Shown here: one piece after another, positions 39,394-48,253 of the stretch
Numbering within the stretch: position 1 is the stretch's first letter
Layout of the letters: each line of letters begins with the position of its first letter
Origin: Verrucomicrobiales bacterium
GTDB lineage: Bacteria > Verrucomicrobiota > Verrucomicrobiia > Verrucomicrobiales > DEV007
Assembly: GCA_029212615.1 (NCBI GenBank)
Contig: JARGPJ010000001.1
Coordinates: forward strand, 186,001-250,000
Direction: 5' to 3'
Length of the DNA: 64,000 nt
Translations under genes and position numbers: made by a program
The notes under the pieces: model-generated
Told to the model about the DNA's origin: nothing
The model's input: the letters and a program-made list of their open reading frames with translations, nothing else
The model's database searches: none

Positions 39394-40224
39394 ATGAACG
39401 CAAGATCACGCTCATTGAACAAAGAACTGCCATCAGCCTATCTCGATCGATTTTCAGGAATCGCCCGACTCTACGGAAGCGGAGCCCTGCCCAAACTCCG
39501 GAGCGCACATGTCGCCGTCATCGGCGTTGGAGGCGTCGGTTCCTGGACCGCTGAAGCGCTTGCCCGAAGTGGCGTCGGCGAAGTCAGCCTGGTCGATCTC
39601 GATGAAGTCTGCATCACCAATGTAAACCGCCAGCTCCCCGCTCTCGATGGCGCGGTCGGAAAATTCAAGGTAGCGGCACTGGCGGAAAGAATGCGCCTCA
39701 TCAATCCGGAGCTCAAGGTCCACGAAACACTCGCTTTCTTTACCGAAAACACCGCCGACCGACTTCTTGAAACCGGCTTTGATGTCATCGTCGATGCCAT
39801 CGATGCGGTCAACGAGAAGGCATTTCTCATCGCGACCTGTCGCGACCGTGGCATCCCTCTCGTCGTCGCCGGCGGAGCAGGAGGAAAGAGCAATCCAGCC
39901 AACGTCAGTTCTGACGACCTTGCTTTCGCGACCAACGACAGACTTCTCCGGCTCGTTCGGAAAAATTTACGCAAGGACCATGGATTTCCCAGAGAAGACG
40001 CCAAAGCGCCTTTCGGGATTCGCGCTGTTTTCAGCACTGAAAATGCCAGGTTCCCCTGGGCCGACGGCAGCGTGAGAGAAGATCCCGAACCCGGAAGCCA
40101 TCTCCGTCTTAATTGTGCTACCGGGTTCGGAACGGCTACGCCCGTGACAGGAACCTTCGGATTCACGGCCGCCGCAGAAGCAATCAGCCTGATTCTACAA
40201 CAGCAGCTGCCCCCGGTCAGTTAA
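39394..40224 (+). CDS. tcdA: tRNA threonylcarbamoyladenosine dehydratase (TcdA/CsdL)
   Basis: AVIGVGGVGSWTAEALARSGVGEVSLVDLDEVCITNVNRQLPA; GFGTATPVTGTFGFTAA. Confidence 0.92.
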   Translation: MNARSRSLNKELPSAYLDRFSGIARLYGSGALPKLRSAHVAVIGVGGVGSWTAEALARSGVGEVSLVDLDEVCITNVNRQLPALDGAVGKFKVAALAERMRLINPELKVHETLAFFTENTADRLLETGFDVIVDAIDAVNEKAFLIATCRDRGIPLVVAGGAGGKSNPANVSSDDLAFATNDRLLRLVRKNLRKDHGFPREDAKAPFGIRAVFSTENARFPWADGSVREDPEPGSHLRLNCATGFGTATPVTGTFGFTAAAEAISLILQQQLPPVS

Positions 40225-41848
40225 GTGCCACCAATACTCTGATCTGATCCACCTCAAGCGTCCCGCCCTTGAGTTTGAGATTCAAGGTGTGTCGATCATC
40301 GCTGAGCAAAATTTCATCACTGCCCATATCAAGACCCCGGCCCCGATTGAACTCAGCCCCGACATGTGCAAGCGAGGTGCCCACTGATTGATCAGAGCTT
40401 GTGAGCCGATCCGATGAGTAGATGAGCCCGACCACTTCGTGATCAAATGTCAGGGAAGCTTCCACCTCCTCACCGTCCACTCCGTTGGTCGGCCACAACT
40501 GGAGCAGGTAACTGCGAAGCTCTCCGCGAGATTGAAGTGCCTGACCGGGATTCGCCTCGGCTGCCGCAAATTGACCAACCTGAATTTGATCCACCTCCAT
40601 CTCAAACTCAGGACGGAAGGACTCATTTTCGACAAAAACCTGGACCTCGCCTTCCTGATCAGTGGACTTGATTTCAGACCCCGGCATTTCGATGCGAACG
40701 GAACCAAGGTTTTTCTCCACCCCTGAAAGCAACTCCCATCCACCCAGGAATGGCTGTGGATTGTAGGGAATATCCACCAGCTTTTCACGGGTCAAATCAG
40801 CCTTCACCGCTTCCAGTTTAAAAAGTGATCGACAGCCTCCATCCTGTAAACAAACTCCTCCATCACCTTCAAAAACGATCGCATCGGTAGAGTATTCCGA
40901 TCTCGCATCAATCCCGATCAACGGCACGGGCTCCGTGACACTGAGACCTTTCGACTGCAAAGTGATCCCGGCATTGGCCGGGCTGTTTCTCGCCATCGCG
41001 ACCCCGTGAAAAACGTGAGCCGTCGCATCATCTTTCACCTCAAATTTGGCAGGACCTTCGACTGTCATCTCACCGCCCGCGGCAAAGGTTAAGGCGACGA
41101 TTCCTTTTTCCAGTTCATAGATCCCCGACTTCACCTCACCCTTCGCACCCGGCATTAAATCTCCGGCCCACTTCGCGTCCACACTCGCCTTCGTTACGAT
41201 GGCCAATGAAGAATTCGCAGGCAATCGCTCAACGCCCTGCTGCGCGATGAAAAAAGCTCCGACAGCGACAGCCGCCGCAATCGCTGCCATCTTCAAAACA
41301 GTAGGTGTCCAGGAAACAGGCATCTCAACCACCTTACCGTTTTCCTCCCCCGCCCCGGAGAACTCACGAACAAGCCGGTCCTCCAGGTCATCGACAAAAT
41401 GATCGCGAGTCGTTTCCGCCCACATCCGTGTCTCGAGCGCTTCAATGAACGCCGCCTCACTCCGTGACTCGGCAACCGCTTCCCGAATCCACTCTTCCTC
41501 GGCGAGATATCTCTTTACCGAAGCAATTTCCGCAGGTGAATCGAGGAGGTGCTTTGCCAACTGATCCCCCTCCGCTGAGGTGATCTCCCCCTCGCAAACC
41601 CTCGCAACGAGCGTTTCAGGTGACTGCTCAAATGCATCCTTCGCAGAACGAAAAAGCGTCTCACTCCGTTCCGGACCATCAGTGAGGACCTGCCGGATCA
41701 TCTCCGCAAACTCCAGTTCCCCCCCCAGCTTCTCAGCGAGTCTCGAATCCTCTTTCGCGAGAACAGCCAACTCCGACAAAAGCTCAGCGGAGATATCTCC
41801 GCTGAGAAAATTGGCCAGAAGCTGGTCTTTTCTATCGCTTGGATTCAT
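40217..41848 (-). CDS. FecR-like membrane protein, probable partner of adjacent ECF sigma factor
   Basis: N-terminal cytoplasmic region, single TM (MAAIAAAVAVGAFFIAQQ), FecR-like GIYELEKGIVALTFAAGGEMTVEGPAKFEV. Confidence 0.8.
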   Translation of the reverse strand: MNPSDRKDQLLANFLSGDISAELLSELAVLAKEDSRLAEKLGGELEFAEMIRQVLTDGPERSETLFRSAKDAFEQSPETLVARVCEGEITSAEGDQLAKHLLDSPAEIASVKRYLAEEEWIREAVAESRSEAAFIEALETRMWAETTRDHFVDDLEDRLVREFSGAGEENGKVVEMPVSWTPTVLKMAAIAAAVAVGAFFIAQQGVERLPANSSLAIVTKASVDAKWAGDLMPGAKGEVKSGIYELEKGIVALTFAAGGEMTVEGPAKFEVKDDATAHVFHGVAMARNSPANAGITLQSKGLSVTEPVPLIGIDARSEYSTDAIVFEGDGGVCLQDGGCRSLFKLEAVKADLTREKLVDIPYNPQPFLGGWELLSGVEKNLGSVRIEMPGSEIKSTDQEGEVQVFVENESFRPEFEMEVDQIQVGQFAAAEANPGQALQSRGELRSYLLQLWPTNGVDGEEVEASLTFDHEVVGLIYSSDRLTSSDQSVGTSLAHVGAEFNRGRGLDMGSDEILLSDDRHTLNLKLKGGTLEVDQIRVLVALN

Positions 41849-41851
41849 GAT

Positions 41852-42406
41852 TCAGAGAGCTTCCGGCATCGGGGTTGACTCCATGCGTTTATCCATGCAC
41901 TTGCGCAAGGCACCCCTGACCCGCTCAAGTGCTTTCCTCACGGCGGGGGGATTCATTTCAAATTGATCCGCGATATCAAGTGCCGAATTCTCGTCCTCGT
42001 ACCGGGACCGCAAAAGCTGCAGGCTCTTCTCCGGTAACTCCGAAACACAGGCGCGCAAGGCATTCAGCTTGGCAAGCCCGCGATCACCGATTTCTTCGTC
42101 TTCGTGATCACTGGCGGAAGAACTCGATAACAATACGTCCGTCAAATTATCAGAAAGGATCCTTTTCCGCCTCGCATCCTTGCGGCGCTCGTTAATCACA
42201 AGATTTCTCGCAATCCCCCGCAGCCAGGCTCCGAAATCGCGCTCGCGGTCAAACTCATCGAGCCGGTTGTAGGCAACGATAAACGCCTCCTGAGCCACAT
42301 CATCAACCCAGAGAGGGTCCACCCCGAGCGCACGAACGAAGCCCCGCAAGCCCGCATGGTGCTCGCGGACCTGCTCGATAAACAGCTCCTGCGTGGTTTG
42401 ATCCAT
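41852..42406 (-). CDS. RNA polymerase ECF sigma factor (Rhodopirellula/Verrucomicrobium-type)
   Basis: VDDVAQEAFIVAYNRLDEFDRERDFGAWLRGIARNLVINERRK; region 4 LRSRYEDENSALDIADQFEMNPPAVRKALERVRGALRKC. Confidence 0.93.
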   Translation of the reverse strand: MDQTTQELFIEQVREHHAGLRGFVRALGVDPLWVDDVAQEAFIVAYNRLDEFDRERDFGAWLRGIARNLVINERRKDARRKRILSDNLTDVLLSSSSASDHEDEEIGDRGLAKLNALRACVSELPEKSLQLLRSRYEDENSALDIADQFEMNPPAVRKALERVRGALRKCMDKRMESTPMPEAL

Positions 42407-43653: not shown

Positions 43654-43998
43654 ATTTTTCTCTTATCAGGTTGAAAGGGAGATGCCCGTTCCCGTCGCTT
43701 CGATGAGAGCAGCGCTCCGCCCTCGACCGGACAGCGGCCCACTCTCACCAGGGCAGACCTTTCCGGTCAATTCGTGTTCCTGCTCAATCAAGGGGTACAG
43801 GAGTCGGGAATAACAGCGACTACTCATGTATTTAGTCGTTGTGAGCCATTCCAAACAACGCTTTTCTTATCATTCAGCCCTCGCTGCTCCGCGCCCCCTG
43901 ATTCCACGGCATAAAAAGGCGATTCAACCCCGGAAATCATGGCGTCTTCCGGTCCCCGCTGTGTCGCAGAACGGAAAACAGTGCTCTATTACCACTCG

Positions 43999-44427
43999 AT
44001 GGAACTCAATCAGTTTACGGATTACTCGCTGCGAACATTGATCGTCGCAGCTCTGAAAAATGGTGATCTGACTTCGGTCCGTGAGGTCGCTGCGTCCTTT
44101 TCTATTTCCGAAAATCATCTCGTAAAGGTTGTTCACAAACTATCAAAACTCGGATACCTCGAAACAATCCGGGGGCGCTCGGGAGGCATTCGACTGGCAA
44201 AAGCCCCTGAATCCATCCCGATCGGGGAAGTCGTCCGTGCGGTTGAGTCATTTACCCTCGTTGACTGTATGCCGCCGCGTACAGGCGAATGCCGGATTGC
44301 GGGAGTCTGCCGTCTTCAGGGACTTTTGCACCGCGCATCAGCCGCATTTTTCAGAGAACTCGACTCACAAACGCTCGCCGACCTCGTCGCAAACGAAGTC
44401 GAATTGCGGGACCGGCTGGGCATGTAG
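43999..44427 (+). CDS. nsrR: Rrf2-family regulator, NsrR-like
   Basis: MELNQFTDYSLRTLIVAALKNGDLTSVREVAASFSISENHLVKVVHKLSKLGYLETIRGRSGGIRLA; Cys motif VDCMPPRTGECRIAGVCRL. Confidence 0.88.
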   Translation: MELNQFTDYSLRTLIVAALKNGDLTSVREVAASFSISENHLVKVVHKLSKLGYLETIRGRSGGIRLAKAPESIPIGEVVRAVESFTLVDCMPPRTGECRIAGVCRLQGLLHRASAAFFRELDSQTLADLVANEVELRDRLGM

Positions 44428-44504
44428 GGATTTATTCGTCGAAGAACTGAGCGACCTCGGAATAGCCGGGGAGTAATTCAGCCAAAGAAGGCACCACCTC
44501 TTCT

Positions 44505-44912
44505 TCACCTTCCGCTCCTCTCATTTGTCTCAGCAAAATCTTTAACCCGGCTGAGCATAACCGCTGCAATATCTTCAGCAATGCGTTTCAAATGCTCTGC
44601 GTTCTCTCCCGTAAAGTGGAGGTCGACAGATTGCGCAAACAGTTTCAGGCATCGCTGAAACCGCTCAGAGCTCATCTCTGTTTTGAGACTCAGCTGTAGG
44701 TGAGGCTTCAATGGATTACCCCGATAATTCCCGCCTCTGAACATGGCCCTCTCCCAGAAGTCCACGATCTTCGGGATGTGGGTTCCCCAATCAACTTTTG
44801 CAATCTCATCAAAAACGGGGCCGAGCAGTTCATCCTCCCGCACTTGGGAATAGAAATATATAACGATGACTTCGAGATCAGCTCTTCCCTCTATATCCCT
44901 GCTTTCGCTCAT
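44505..44912 (-). CDS. Group III truncated haemoglobin
   Basis: VIYFYSQVREDELLGPVFDEI; IVDFWERAMFRGGNYRGNPLKPHLQLSL; RFQRCLKLFAQSV. Confidence 0.87.
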   Translation of the reverse strand: MSESRDIEGRADLEVIVIYFYSQVREDELLGPVFDEIAKVDWGTHIPKIVDFWERAMFRGGNYRGNPLKPHLQLSLKTEMSSERFQRCLKLFAQSVDLHFTGENAEHLKRIAEDIAAVMLSRVKDFAETNERSGR

Positions 44913-45526
44913 TGCACTCCCCCGGACTTTTCAGACTCCTCGACCGGATCAAAATTCACAGGCATGGAAATGGCCAGGCCGGCGACACGGGAATCAAGAT
45001 TGCTCCGGTAGGGGACGTGACACTTCAGGCATTGATTGTGAAGTGTAATCGCTCCGACAAACCGGTACCTGCCGTCCTCCATCCCGTAAAACTCTTCAGC
45101 TCCTTTCTTGAGAGCATCGGCCGCTCTTTGCTCAAATTCATCTTGAGGGTCATGCCCCTTGTCCTTTGTAGCATTTACACCGAGCCACCGGATATCGACC
45201 ATCCATGACCGTGACATTTCTTTAAACACGTCTTCCAGAGACTGAGAGGGAAGAGCAAGAGCGCCACTCTCACCGTCATCTCCATCACCGAAAAAATCCC
45301 GGTGCATCACCTGAAGGGCTCCATGCATCGCTTCGTGCATCCAGCGGGCCCGGCCACGCGCCTCACTTTCGCTGGAAGGTAGATTCTCTTTCGCTTTCTC
45401 CGGAATCCCTTCCAGGGACTCAGCTGCGACATCATCTTCCGCCCGCAACAACCAGCCGCCGACCGCGCTGAATGCCAGTGTGACGATCATCAAAATGATC
45501 ACGGAAAATGAAGGACTAATTTTCAT
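44909..45526 (-). CDS. Tll0287-like (DUF3365) membrane-anchored c-type haem protein
   Basis: N-terminal TM; ITLHNQCLKCHVPYRSN (CxxCH). Confidence 0.8.
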   Translation of the reverse strand: MKISPSFSVIILMIVTLAFSAVGGWLLRAEDDVAAESLEGIPEKAKENLPSSESEARGRARWMHEAMHGALQVMHRDFFGDGDDGESGALALPSQSLEDVFKEMSRSWMVDIRWLGVNATKDKGHDPQDEFEQRAADALKKGAEEFYGMEDGRYRFVGAITLHNQCLKCHVPYRSNLDSRVAGLAISMPVNFDPVEESEKSGGVQ

Positions 45527-45537
45527 GACTTGAAATA

Positions 45538-45560
45538 AAGATGTAAAACAAGTACATGAT
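45538..45560. promoter_or_regulatory. Putative NsrR operator
   Basis: AAGATGTA-AAACAAG-TACATGAT; against AAGATGYA-N7-TRCATCTT, left half 8/8 and right half 6/8, correct spacing. Confidence 0.6.
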
Positions 45561-45650
45561 TTAAGATTTATCGCAATAACACCTCCCACGATTCAGGTAG
45601 CGTTTACACGTCCCGTCGAAACCGTGGGAACAACATCACCGACTTTCCAC

Positions 45651-46877
45651 ATGAGTTCACACGCTCACCGCAACTCAGATTCCGGGCCCGGCATTCAAAC
45701 CCTGGCAATTCATGCGGGAGAGCACCCGGACCCGGTGACGAAAGCCTCTTCGCCCAATCTGGTGATGTCTTCGACTTTTCTCGCTGACCCTGATGCCTCC
45801 TTCTCAGCTGAAGGAAGCCATGAGGACGAAGGCTACTTTTACTCCCGGTGGTCCAACCCGACAGTCGCTCAACTGGAGAGCAAGCTCGCAGCCCTCGAAG
45901 GTACGGAATCCGCAATGGCCTTTGCTTCCGGGATGGCAGCGGTCAACGCGCTCTTTCTTCACTGTTTGCGTCCCGGTGATCACCTCGTAATGGGAGATAT
46001 CGTGTATGCAGCTGTATCAGAGACCGCAAATGATCTCCTTCTGGAACTCGGTATAAAAATATCGCGAGTCGATACTTCCGATCCCGCTGCCGTCGAAACG
46101 GCTCTACGGGAGAACACCCGGCTCGTTTATATCGAATCGCCATGCAATCCCATTCTCCGTCTCACCGATATCGCTGCGATAGCGAAGCTGCTCCGCGGCA
46201 CGAAGGCGCGGCTCGCAGTAGACTCGACTTTTGCCACACCGGTGGCGACTCGCCCCACCGACTACGGCGCCGACTTTGTGATTCATTCACTTACCAAATA
46301 CCTCGGTGGTCACGGCGATGCCGTAGGAGGCGCCCTGCTCGGCCCAACTGAAGACATCACGGAGATACGCCGGAAAGCAGGAATTCGCATGGGGGGCGTC
46401 CTCAGCCCCTTCAACGCCTGGCTGATTCTGAGAGGTCTCGCTACTTTCCCACTTCGGATGCGCGCCCATGAATCAGCGGCGATGGACGTGGGACGCTTCC
46501 TCGAAAATCACCCATTGATTAGTCGCGTCTACTATCCGGGATTCGAATCCCATCCTCAGCATGAACTTGCTGCGCGCCAGATGAACAATTTTTCCGGGAT
46601 GCTCACCTTCCAGACGGAAAGGCATGCCGAACTCCCGCACCTCTTGGCGGAAAATCTGGAAATCATCCACTACGCCGTCTCCCTCGGACATCACCGTTCC
46701 CTCATTTTTTACATACCTACTGAGGAGATCCTGAAGACATCCTTCAAACTAACAGAACAACAGAACGAAGCTTATCGTGAATTCGCGGGAGATGCTATCT
46801 TCCGACTATCTGTTGGAATTGAAGATTCAAAGGATCTCTGTGCAGACCTTGAAAGAGTATTCTCGAAACTCACTTGA
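45651..46877 (+). CDS. Trans-sulfuration PLP enzyme (cystathionine gamma-synthase / methionine gamma-lyase-like)
   Basis: IHAGEHPDPVTKASSPNLVMSSTF; YSRWSNPTVAQLESKLAALEG; SLTKYLGGHGDAVGG. Confidence 0.92.
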   Translation: MSSHAHRNSDSGPGIQTLAIHAGEHPDPVTKASSPNLVMSSTFLADPDASFSAEGSHEDEGYFYSRWSNPTVAQLESKLAALEGTESAMAFASGMAAVNALFLHCLRPGDHLVMGDIVYAAVSETANDLLLELGIKISRVDTSDPAAVETALRENTRLVYIESPCNPILRLTDIAAIAKLLRGTKARLAVDSTFATPVATRPTDYGADFVIHSLTKYLGGHGDAVGGALLGPTEDITEIRRKAGIRMGGVLSPFNAWLILRGLATFPLRMRAHESAAMDVGRFLENHPLISRVYYPGFESHPQHELAARQMNNFSGMLTFQTERHAELPHLLAENLEIIHYAVSLGHHRSLIFYIPTEEILKTSFKLTEQQNEAYREFAGDAIFRLSVGIEDSKDLCADLERVFSKLT

Positions 46878-47027: not shown

Positions 47028-47870
47028 TCAAAAACCTAAAACCGCTGTGACCGGATAATGATCCGAAGGGAGCCTCCCTTCCTTTCGATAACGATCAATT
47101 GCCGCAAACCTTACCTCAAATAACGGGGAACAAATCACCCAATCAAGTCGCCGCCCGTCATCGGCATCTTTAAACCCGGTAAATGTGCCTTCCTTCCCGG
47201 GCAGGACCTCGGGATTAAGATGGCGAAAAGTATCAACGAACGCCCCATCATCTCCAATCAGCGTCGCATGAGGCGCACTGCCATCCGCGCAATTGAAGTC
47301 CCCCGTGATGATAAACGGGTTCTCTCCCGCGATCCCGGGAATGCGCTTGCGGATCAATTTCGCCGATTCTTCACGTGCCATCGCACCTCGATGATCAAAA
47401 TGAGTATTCGCAAATACGACCCTTTTCCCGGATCCCCTCTCTTTGAGACGCACCCAGCTCACGATACGGGGCAAACTCGAATCCCAACTCTTCGAGGCAA
47501 CCACTTCCGGTTCTTCACTGAGCCAGAAAGTGCCCTTGTCGAGCAGCTCAAACCGGCTCTTCCGGTAGAAAATCGCACAGGACTCCCCTCCATCCGGGGT
47601 TCTCGGAACTTCATACACCTCATACTCCGGCAAATTTTCGCTGAGGAATTCAACCTGAAAACTGAGTGACTCCTGCAATCCCAACAAATCCGGTGAGGTC
47701 CGTACAACGGTCTCCACGACCAAATCTTTTCGATGGGGCCAGGCATTGTCACCATCTTTCGCTGAGCCAAAACGAATGTTAAAAGACATCACCGAAAGGT
47801 CTTCACCAAATAAGGAGGAAGAGCAGAGAAGAAAGCACAGAACCAATGCCAAGTTGAAAATTCGATTCAT
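47028..47870 (-). CDS. Secreted endonuclease/exonuclease/phosphatase family protein
   Basis: LSVMSFNIRFGSAKDGDNAW; DLLGLQES; VFANTHFDHRG; IITGDFNC; PSDHYPV. Confidence 0.92.
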   Translation of the reverse strand: MNRIFNLALVLCFLLCSSSLFGEDLSVMSFNIRFGSAKDGDNAWPHRKDLVVETVVRTSPDLLGLQESLSFQVEFLSENLPEYEVYEVPRTPDGGESCAIFYRKSRFELLDKGTFWLSEEPEVVASKSWDSSLPRIVSWVRLKERGSGKRVVFANTHFDHRGAMAREESAKLIRKRIPGIAGENPFIITGDFNCADGSAPHATLIGDDGAFVDTFRHLNPEVLPGKEGTFTGFKDADDGRRLDWVICSPLFEVRFAAIDRYRKEGRLPSDHYPVTAVLGF

Positions 47871-48253
47871 CGTCAAACACTCTGAAGTGCGATCCTGCCT
47901 CAATCAACTCCGCGAAACGGACCCCTCCTTCACCGGCCATACCTTGCACCCCGCAGACGAACCAGCCTCTCCAAATACAGGCTATTTCCGCCCCCTTACA
48001 GTGGCCGGGAAACACTCCTTCCGGATCTTCAGCCGGGCAAGGGCAGGCTCGAATGAAGTTCCCCCCTCTGTCAGCGCATTGCTCACCCTCGAGTGAAAGG
48101 AGTGGAAAATTACCCTTCCCTCCTCTATAAAAAGAAATTCGGGCGTCAAGCCCGCGAATCCCGGTTGAACATATATAGCCGGATGATCTTCAGCTGAGTC
48201 AGAATGGACTGAAGTCCGGCCCATTTTCCCGAATCCCCCCCCTCTCATACATC

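Follow-up and report, generated by a model that had tools for sequence, protein, structure and literature searches.

A Candidate NsrR-Type Nitric Oxide Response Module Joining a Tll0287-Like c-Haem Protein and a Group III Truncated Haemoglobin in Verrucomicrobiales

Organization of the Locus

The window, i.e., the whole stretch of 64,000 nucleotides analysed here, belongs to a Verrucomicrobiales genome of 4.55 Mb (G000), and the relatives used for comparison are Verrucomicrobiales MAGs, some of them labelled Akkermansiaceae. The genes and features at the locus are as follows:

43999–44427, + strand: nsrR, encoding an NsrR-type Rrf2 repressor of 142 aa, in frame within the 43939–44427 ORF
44505–44912, − strand: group III truncated haemoglobin (TrHb-III), 135 aa, similar to 2ig3
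44909–45526, − strand: sCache_heme gene, encoding a stand-alone Tll0287-like c-haem protein of 205 aa (PF11845, 5b82 fold)
45538–45560 (modelled as 45536–45562), no strand: predicted NsrR-type dyad AAGATGTA-N7-TACATGAT, based on motif score and conservation
45651–46877, + strand: methionine gamma-lyase/cystathionine gamma-lyase-like PLP enzyme (PF01053, 383 bits)

The sCache_heme and TrHb-III genes share 4 nt (44909–44912) and are both convergent to nsrR, their coordinates agreeing with the overlap and orientation given in an earlier note on this DNA, and they likely constitute one operon. The start of the sCache_heme gene was taken as the ATG at 45526; the GTG at 45589 was rejected, as it would put the box inside the gene, and the ATG of the relatives comes after the box. 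Promoter and terminator scans at the locus gave scores no better than those of shuffles.

Elsewhere in the window, at 40217–42406, an ECF-type sigma factor gene is followed by a gene of 543 aa that matches no Pfam family, an arrangement similar to a sigma/anti-sigma (FecR-like) pair. In addition, an endonuclease/exonuclease/phosphatase-family gene lies near nsrR at 47028–47903, and its planctomycete counterpart (L206:1837–2724, 27% identity) directly adjoins nsrR, possibly by coincidence.

The Regulator and the Haem Proteins

The Rrf2 protein of the window (PF02082, 120 bits) has NsrR as its best NCBIfam model, with 142.2 bits against a curated equivalog cut-off of 182, followed by RirA as the second-best curated model (108.6 bits), and its best solved relative is NsrR from S. 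coelicolor (5n07, E 1e-18). It is called NsrR-type here because its score lies below the curated NsrR cut-off, as likewise occurs with the planctomycete protein of L202 (125 bits). In S. coelicolor NsrR, the Fe-S cluster is ligated by three cysteines and Asp8. The corresponding residues of the window protein, Asp8, Cys90, Cys98 and Cys104, are invariant among relatives (alignment A7). The Cys pattern that the earlier note had called NsrR-like is thus borne out by these residues, by the best model and by the best solved relative, and the ligands whose lack it had named as a counterargument are kept across the relatives.

Regarding the globin, it is related to Ctb from C. jejuni (2ig3, E 1.9e-12), and its Pfam scan gave no Bac_globin match. 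The haem-pocket residues Tyr21, His45 and His71 align with the Tyr B10 and the distal and proximal His of group III (alignment A6), while the distal G8 position bears Cys88, where all aligned relatives have Trp. Among the 19 TrHb-III loci fetched, a box was found upstream or in the same cluster in seven and was absent in the other 12; judged by these predicted boxes, TrHb-III is not always under NsrR.

The sCache_heme protein possesses an N-terminal hydrophobic helix, a PF11845 match (28.0 bits, cut-off 24.1) in a region that also resembles cytochrome c segments, and a single CLKCH motif (C166-L-K-C-H170), invariant or nearly so among sCache_heme proteins in alignment A2. The Cys pair of this motif is its only Cys, so that the axial Cys of the redox (Cys/His) type is absent. 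As haem c is attached outside the cytoplasm, the protein is expected to be located there. Its AF2 model (pLDDT 80) has Tll0287 (5b82) as the top PDB fold match (E 2.7e-4, prob 1.0), with a Geobacter haem-c sensor domain as the next best, whereas Tll0287 was not found by sequence-only PDB searches. No other Pfam domain was detected in its 205 aa that could serve as a fused signalling output, and for this reason the protein is not filed as an NO sensor: from the "c-haem sensor-like protein" of the earlier note, the Tll0287-like c-haem part is retained on the basis of PF11845, CLKCH and the 5b82 fold, and the word "sensor" is dropped.

Two members of the sCache_heme family have been measured, as described in a 2026 preprint (PMC12889525): a stand-alone protein from P. 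putida, with Cys/His-ligated haem and redox-like, binds NO weakly (koff ~0.06 per s), and a signalling member without the axial Cys binds NO with a koff of 6e-4 per s. By that criterion, the window protein, lacking the axial Cys, should resemble the latter, and by this analogy the exported c-haem protein probably binds NO. A homologue on a Planctomyces plasmid adjoins cytochrome oxidase genes, and so not every member of the family need serve NO.

The Predicted Box and Its Conservation

The box AAGATGTA-N7-TACATGAT stands upstream of both divergent genes, 11 bp from the ATG of sCache_heme and 90 bp from that of the PLP enzyme; the nsrR gene of the window lacks one. When its match to AAGATGYA-N7-TRCATCTT was recomputed, the 14/16 arm positions and the N7 spacing reported in the earlier note were obtained again. 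Alone, a single 14/16 box is unremarkable in a genome of ~4.5 Mb, where such matches are expected several times, and when the 120 bp preceding the window sCache_heme gene are shuffled, the same core score is reached in 1.8% of cases. In the genome-wide scan that the earlier note had suggested, the consensus pattern with up to three mismatches occurs at 124 places in the window genome, barely over the 105 of a reversed control pattern, and this count was set aside as evidence for the box. A profile built with the window left out (R2) matched the window box as the only place in G000, although with a weak score (13.6 bits, E 0.53). Other candidate boxes in G000 were discarded, not being recovered by the profile and, for those in the scanned loci, lying under the PWM threshold.

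For the comparison with relatives, homologous c-haem genes were taken from ~30 related genomes, and the 120 bp upstream were scored with the 14-position NsrR consensus of Rodionov 2005, which is independent of these genomes, at a threshold of at least 10. This score was reached upstream of 20 of the 26 sCache_heme genes versus 11 of the 217 control ORF starts from the same loci, one of the control matches being an nsrR gene (L057) with a perfect 14/14 site. In alignments anchored on the box, the mean pairwise identity is 0.66 for the 23-bp box and falls to the background (0.25–0.29) in the flanks, so general genome relatedness does not explain the conservation of the box. The consensus of the relatives is roughly AARnTGyA-N7-TrCAnCTT, with the core TGyA-N7-TrCA, found at the same place before most sCache_heme genes. 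It is this conservation, and not the single site, that makes the predicted box significant.

The motif is not restricted to the c-haem genes, as a profile trained on them detects it at the start of nsrR in 14 of the 23 loci without a c-haem neighbour (39 of 3302 control stretches). In relatives, the same profile matches upstream of NnrS, a classical NsrR target (PMC1274295), and of a hemerythrin gene that diverges from nsrR. Further matches precede the gene of an HPP-family membrane protein with TrHb-III behind it, some TrHb-III genes, and genes for exported TrHb-I, part of which carry a fused YHS domain.

In many relatives, an NsrR-type box also directly precedes the gene of a conserved exported protein of ~435 aa, which contains a single CxxCH and matches neither Pfam nor NCBIfam; the family comprises L156:3513–4817, members in L140, L141, L145, L148–L154, L157, L198 and L203, and two copies in G000 (L256 and L257), both of them without box. 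Its gene directly follows nsrR in other genera and adjoins the c-haem gene in Planctomycetota. The AF2 model of this family (pLDDT 61) is too poor to use.

Orthologues of the PLP enzyme carry boxes as well, located 4 bp before the gene in L143 (G024, 76% identity) and between divergent TrHb-III and PLP-enzyme genes in L155 (G029, 78% identity). These two boxes represent the two sides of the promoter region of the window, and 45651–46877 therefore probably belongs to the module, under the same predicted box as the c-haem operon. A PLP enzyme with such a box suggests that the NO response involves sulfur or thiol metabolism.

Distribution and Gene Order in Relatives

Within the genus, the presence of the c-haem gene and that of nsrR go together, with Fisher p 8.6e-5 over 34 genomes and 4.9e-4 over those at least 90% complete, both tests ignoring phylogeny. 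Each gene is also found without the other, and G025 has the c-haem gene but lacks a good box as well as a good match to nsrR.

Many relatives of the same genus have the c-haem gene followed by nsrR in an operon, with an exported TrHb-I divergent from them, whereas in the window the c-haem gene shares its likely operon with TrHb-III, and nsrR is convergent to both. L179 has the same arrangement as the window, a c-haem gene with TrHb-III behind it, and a box immediately ahead of the start. The pairing of c-haem protein and TrHb-III put forward in the earlier note thus stands for the window and L179, but it does not extend to most same-genus relatives, which have the exported TrHb-I beside the module. 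All four of the parts that it had named (NsrR-like regulator, TrHb-III, c-haem protein and NsrR box) are real, and comparative evidence that does not depend on the window connects them. As a separate observation, an exported truncated globin is unusual, and an exported fusion of a YHS domain and TrHb-I occurs at L039:8572–9138 and in L043, L044, L046, L050, L057 and L063, transcribed away from either the c-haem gene or nsrR.

In Planctomycetota, nsrR is found near c-haem genes in several loci, and boxes precede nsrR in L199, L202 and L208. One locus (L198) consists of the gene of the ~435-aa CxxCH protein, the c-haem gene and a NorB-type NO reductase gene. A second, different Tll0287-like gene clusters with nsrR and the c-haem gene in L199, L202, L206 and L212, where further members of the cluster are PAS-domain proteins, nitrite/sulfite reductase and ScdA_N (DUF542) proteins. 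In G000, the PF00115 proteins were considered as NO reductases and rejected, as they look like oxidases.

Proposed Mechanism and Alternative Explanations

Taken together, these data make it fairly probable that the locus is an NO response module run by the NsrR-type regulator, comprising a c-haem/TrHb-III operon derepressed by NO, a cytoplasmic globin that removes NO and an exported c-haem protein that binds NO or transfers electrons. Sequence and comparison support this reading through the genes themselves, their overlap, the conserved dyad, the co-occurrence with nsrR and the presence of the motif at other NO genes. From these we infer that the operon is repressed, that NO is the signal, that the c-haem protein binds NO and that the lyase takes part. 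Holo-NsrR would bind the dyad at 45538–45560, at the start of the sCache_heme–TrHb-III operon, blocking transcription. NO would then destroy or nitrosylate the Fe-S cluster, releasing NsrR and derepressing the operon, probably together with the PLP-lyase gene that diverges from it. Subsequently, the cytoplasmic TrHb-III would remove NO, and the exported c-haem protein, having no Cys free as axial ligand, may scavenge NO extracytoplasmically or take part in NO-related electron transfer.

Within an NsrR-controlled module, the c-haem protein could instead be a periplasmic redox carrier during the NO response, with no NO binding in vivo, which we regard as rather unlikely. The redox-like behaviour of the stand-alone P. 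putida member (PMC12889525), the plasmid homologue adjoining cytochrome c oxidase genes, the NO reductase next to the c-haem gene of L198, an enzyme that needs electrons, and the likeness of the PF11845 region to cytochrome c segments would all suit such a carrier, but the window protein is without the axial Cys typical of the redox-like member.

As for the signal, an Rrf2 protein that senses iron, Fe-S status or nitrite, similar to RirA or IscR, would turn the module into a haem or iron stress response. The position of RirA as second-best curated model and the score of NsrR below its own cut-off are compatible with this; however, both the top-scoring model, by a clear margin, and the best solved relative are NsrR, the dyad is that of the NsrR consensus, and the motif lies upstream of NnrS and a hemerythrin gene in relatives, making a signal other than NO quite improbable. 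Finally, a dyad of this quality would not by itself stand out in 4.5 Mb, as would be expected if the neighbours and the box were a mere coincidence, but the conserved footprint, the co-occurrence and the recurrence of the same gene pair with the box in L179 contradict this, leaving coincidence barely credible.

Returning to the NsrR-controlled NO response, a wider reading is put forward tentatively, in which stand-alone sCache_heme proteins without the axial Cys may be specialised in binding NO outside the cytoplasm as members of an NsrR regulon common to Verrucomicrobiota and Planctomycetota, i.e., a c-haem counterpart of cytochrome c' working with interchangeable truncated haemoglobins. This would give a candidate biological role to stand-alone members of the Tll0287/DUF3365 family, for which a redox carrier function had so far been conjectured, and predicts that the absence of the axial Cys tells which of them bind NO. 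Moreover, the outline of an NsrR regulon emerges for Verrucomicrobiota, and Planctomycetota show signs of it too; this regulon would gain at least two uncharacterised or unexpected members, the ~435-aa CxxCH protein and the methionine-lyase-like enzyme.

Comparison with Known Systems

Campylobacter jejuni Ctb is controlled by NssR, an activator of the CRP family, and is not known to be under NsrR. This globin (PDB 2ig3) belongs to the same sequence family as the window TrHb-III and has the haem-pocket Tyr and His residues in common with it, while the window protein differs in having Cys, and not Trp, at G8. With the sCache_heme/DUF3365/Tll0287 family (PMC12889525; PDB 5b82), the c-haem protein shares the fold, the CxxCH and the extracytoplasmic c-type haem; it is stand-alone like the redox-type member but lacks the axial Cys, and its gene has a predicted NsrR box upstream, a context that PMC12889525 does not mention.

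In the open-licence literature, no paper was found tying DUF3365/Tll0287 to NsrR, nor any description of an NsrR regulon in Verrucomicrobiota or Planctomycetota, which is in line with the statement of the earlier note that a c-haem/TrHb-III pairing under NsrR was not known as described. NsrR homologues as such have been reported from magnetotactic Planctomycetota (PMC11014258).

The NsrR regulons of Proteobacteria, Bacillus and Streptomyces (PMC1274295) have in common with this module the type of regulator and the dyad gATGyAT-N5-ATrCATc, and also NnrS as a target and the control of NO-removing haem globins, as predicted for the module and its relatives. A parallel within that study is the glbN–lpg2536 operon of Legionella, the predicted sole NsrR target there, in which a small globin gene belongs to an operon whose NsrR site is apparently the only one in its genome, as in the window genome; however, its globin is called a cyanoglobin and its partner is a ferredoxin reductase, whereas the partner in the window is a c-haem protein. 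The locus represents a real conserved module; globins under NsrR are already familiar from other bacteria, and the c-haem member and the putative regulon in Verrucomicrobiota are apparently new.
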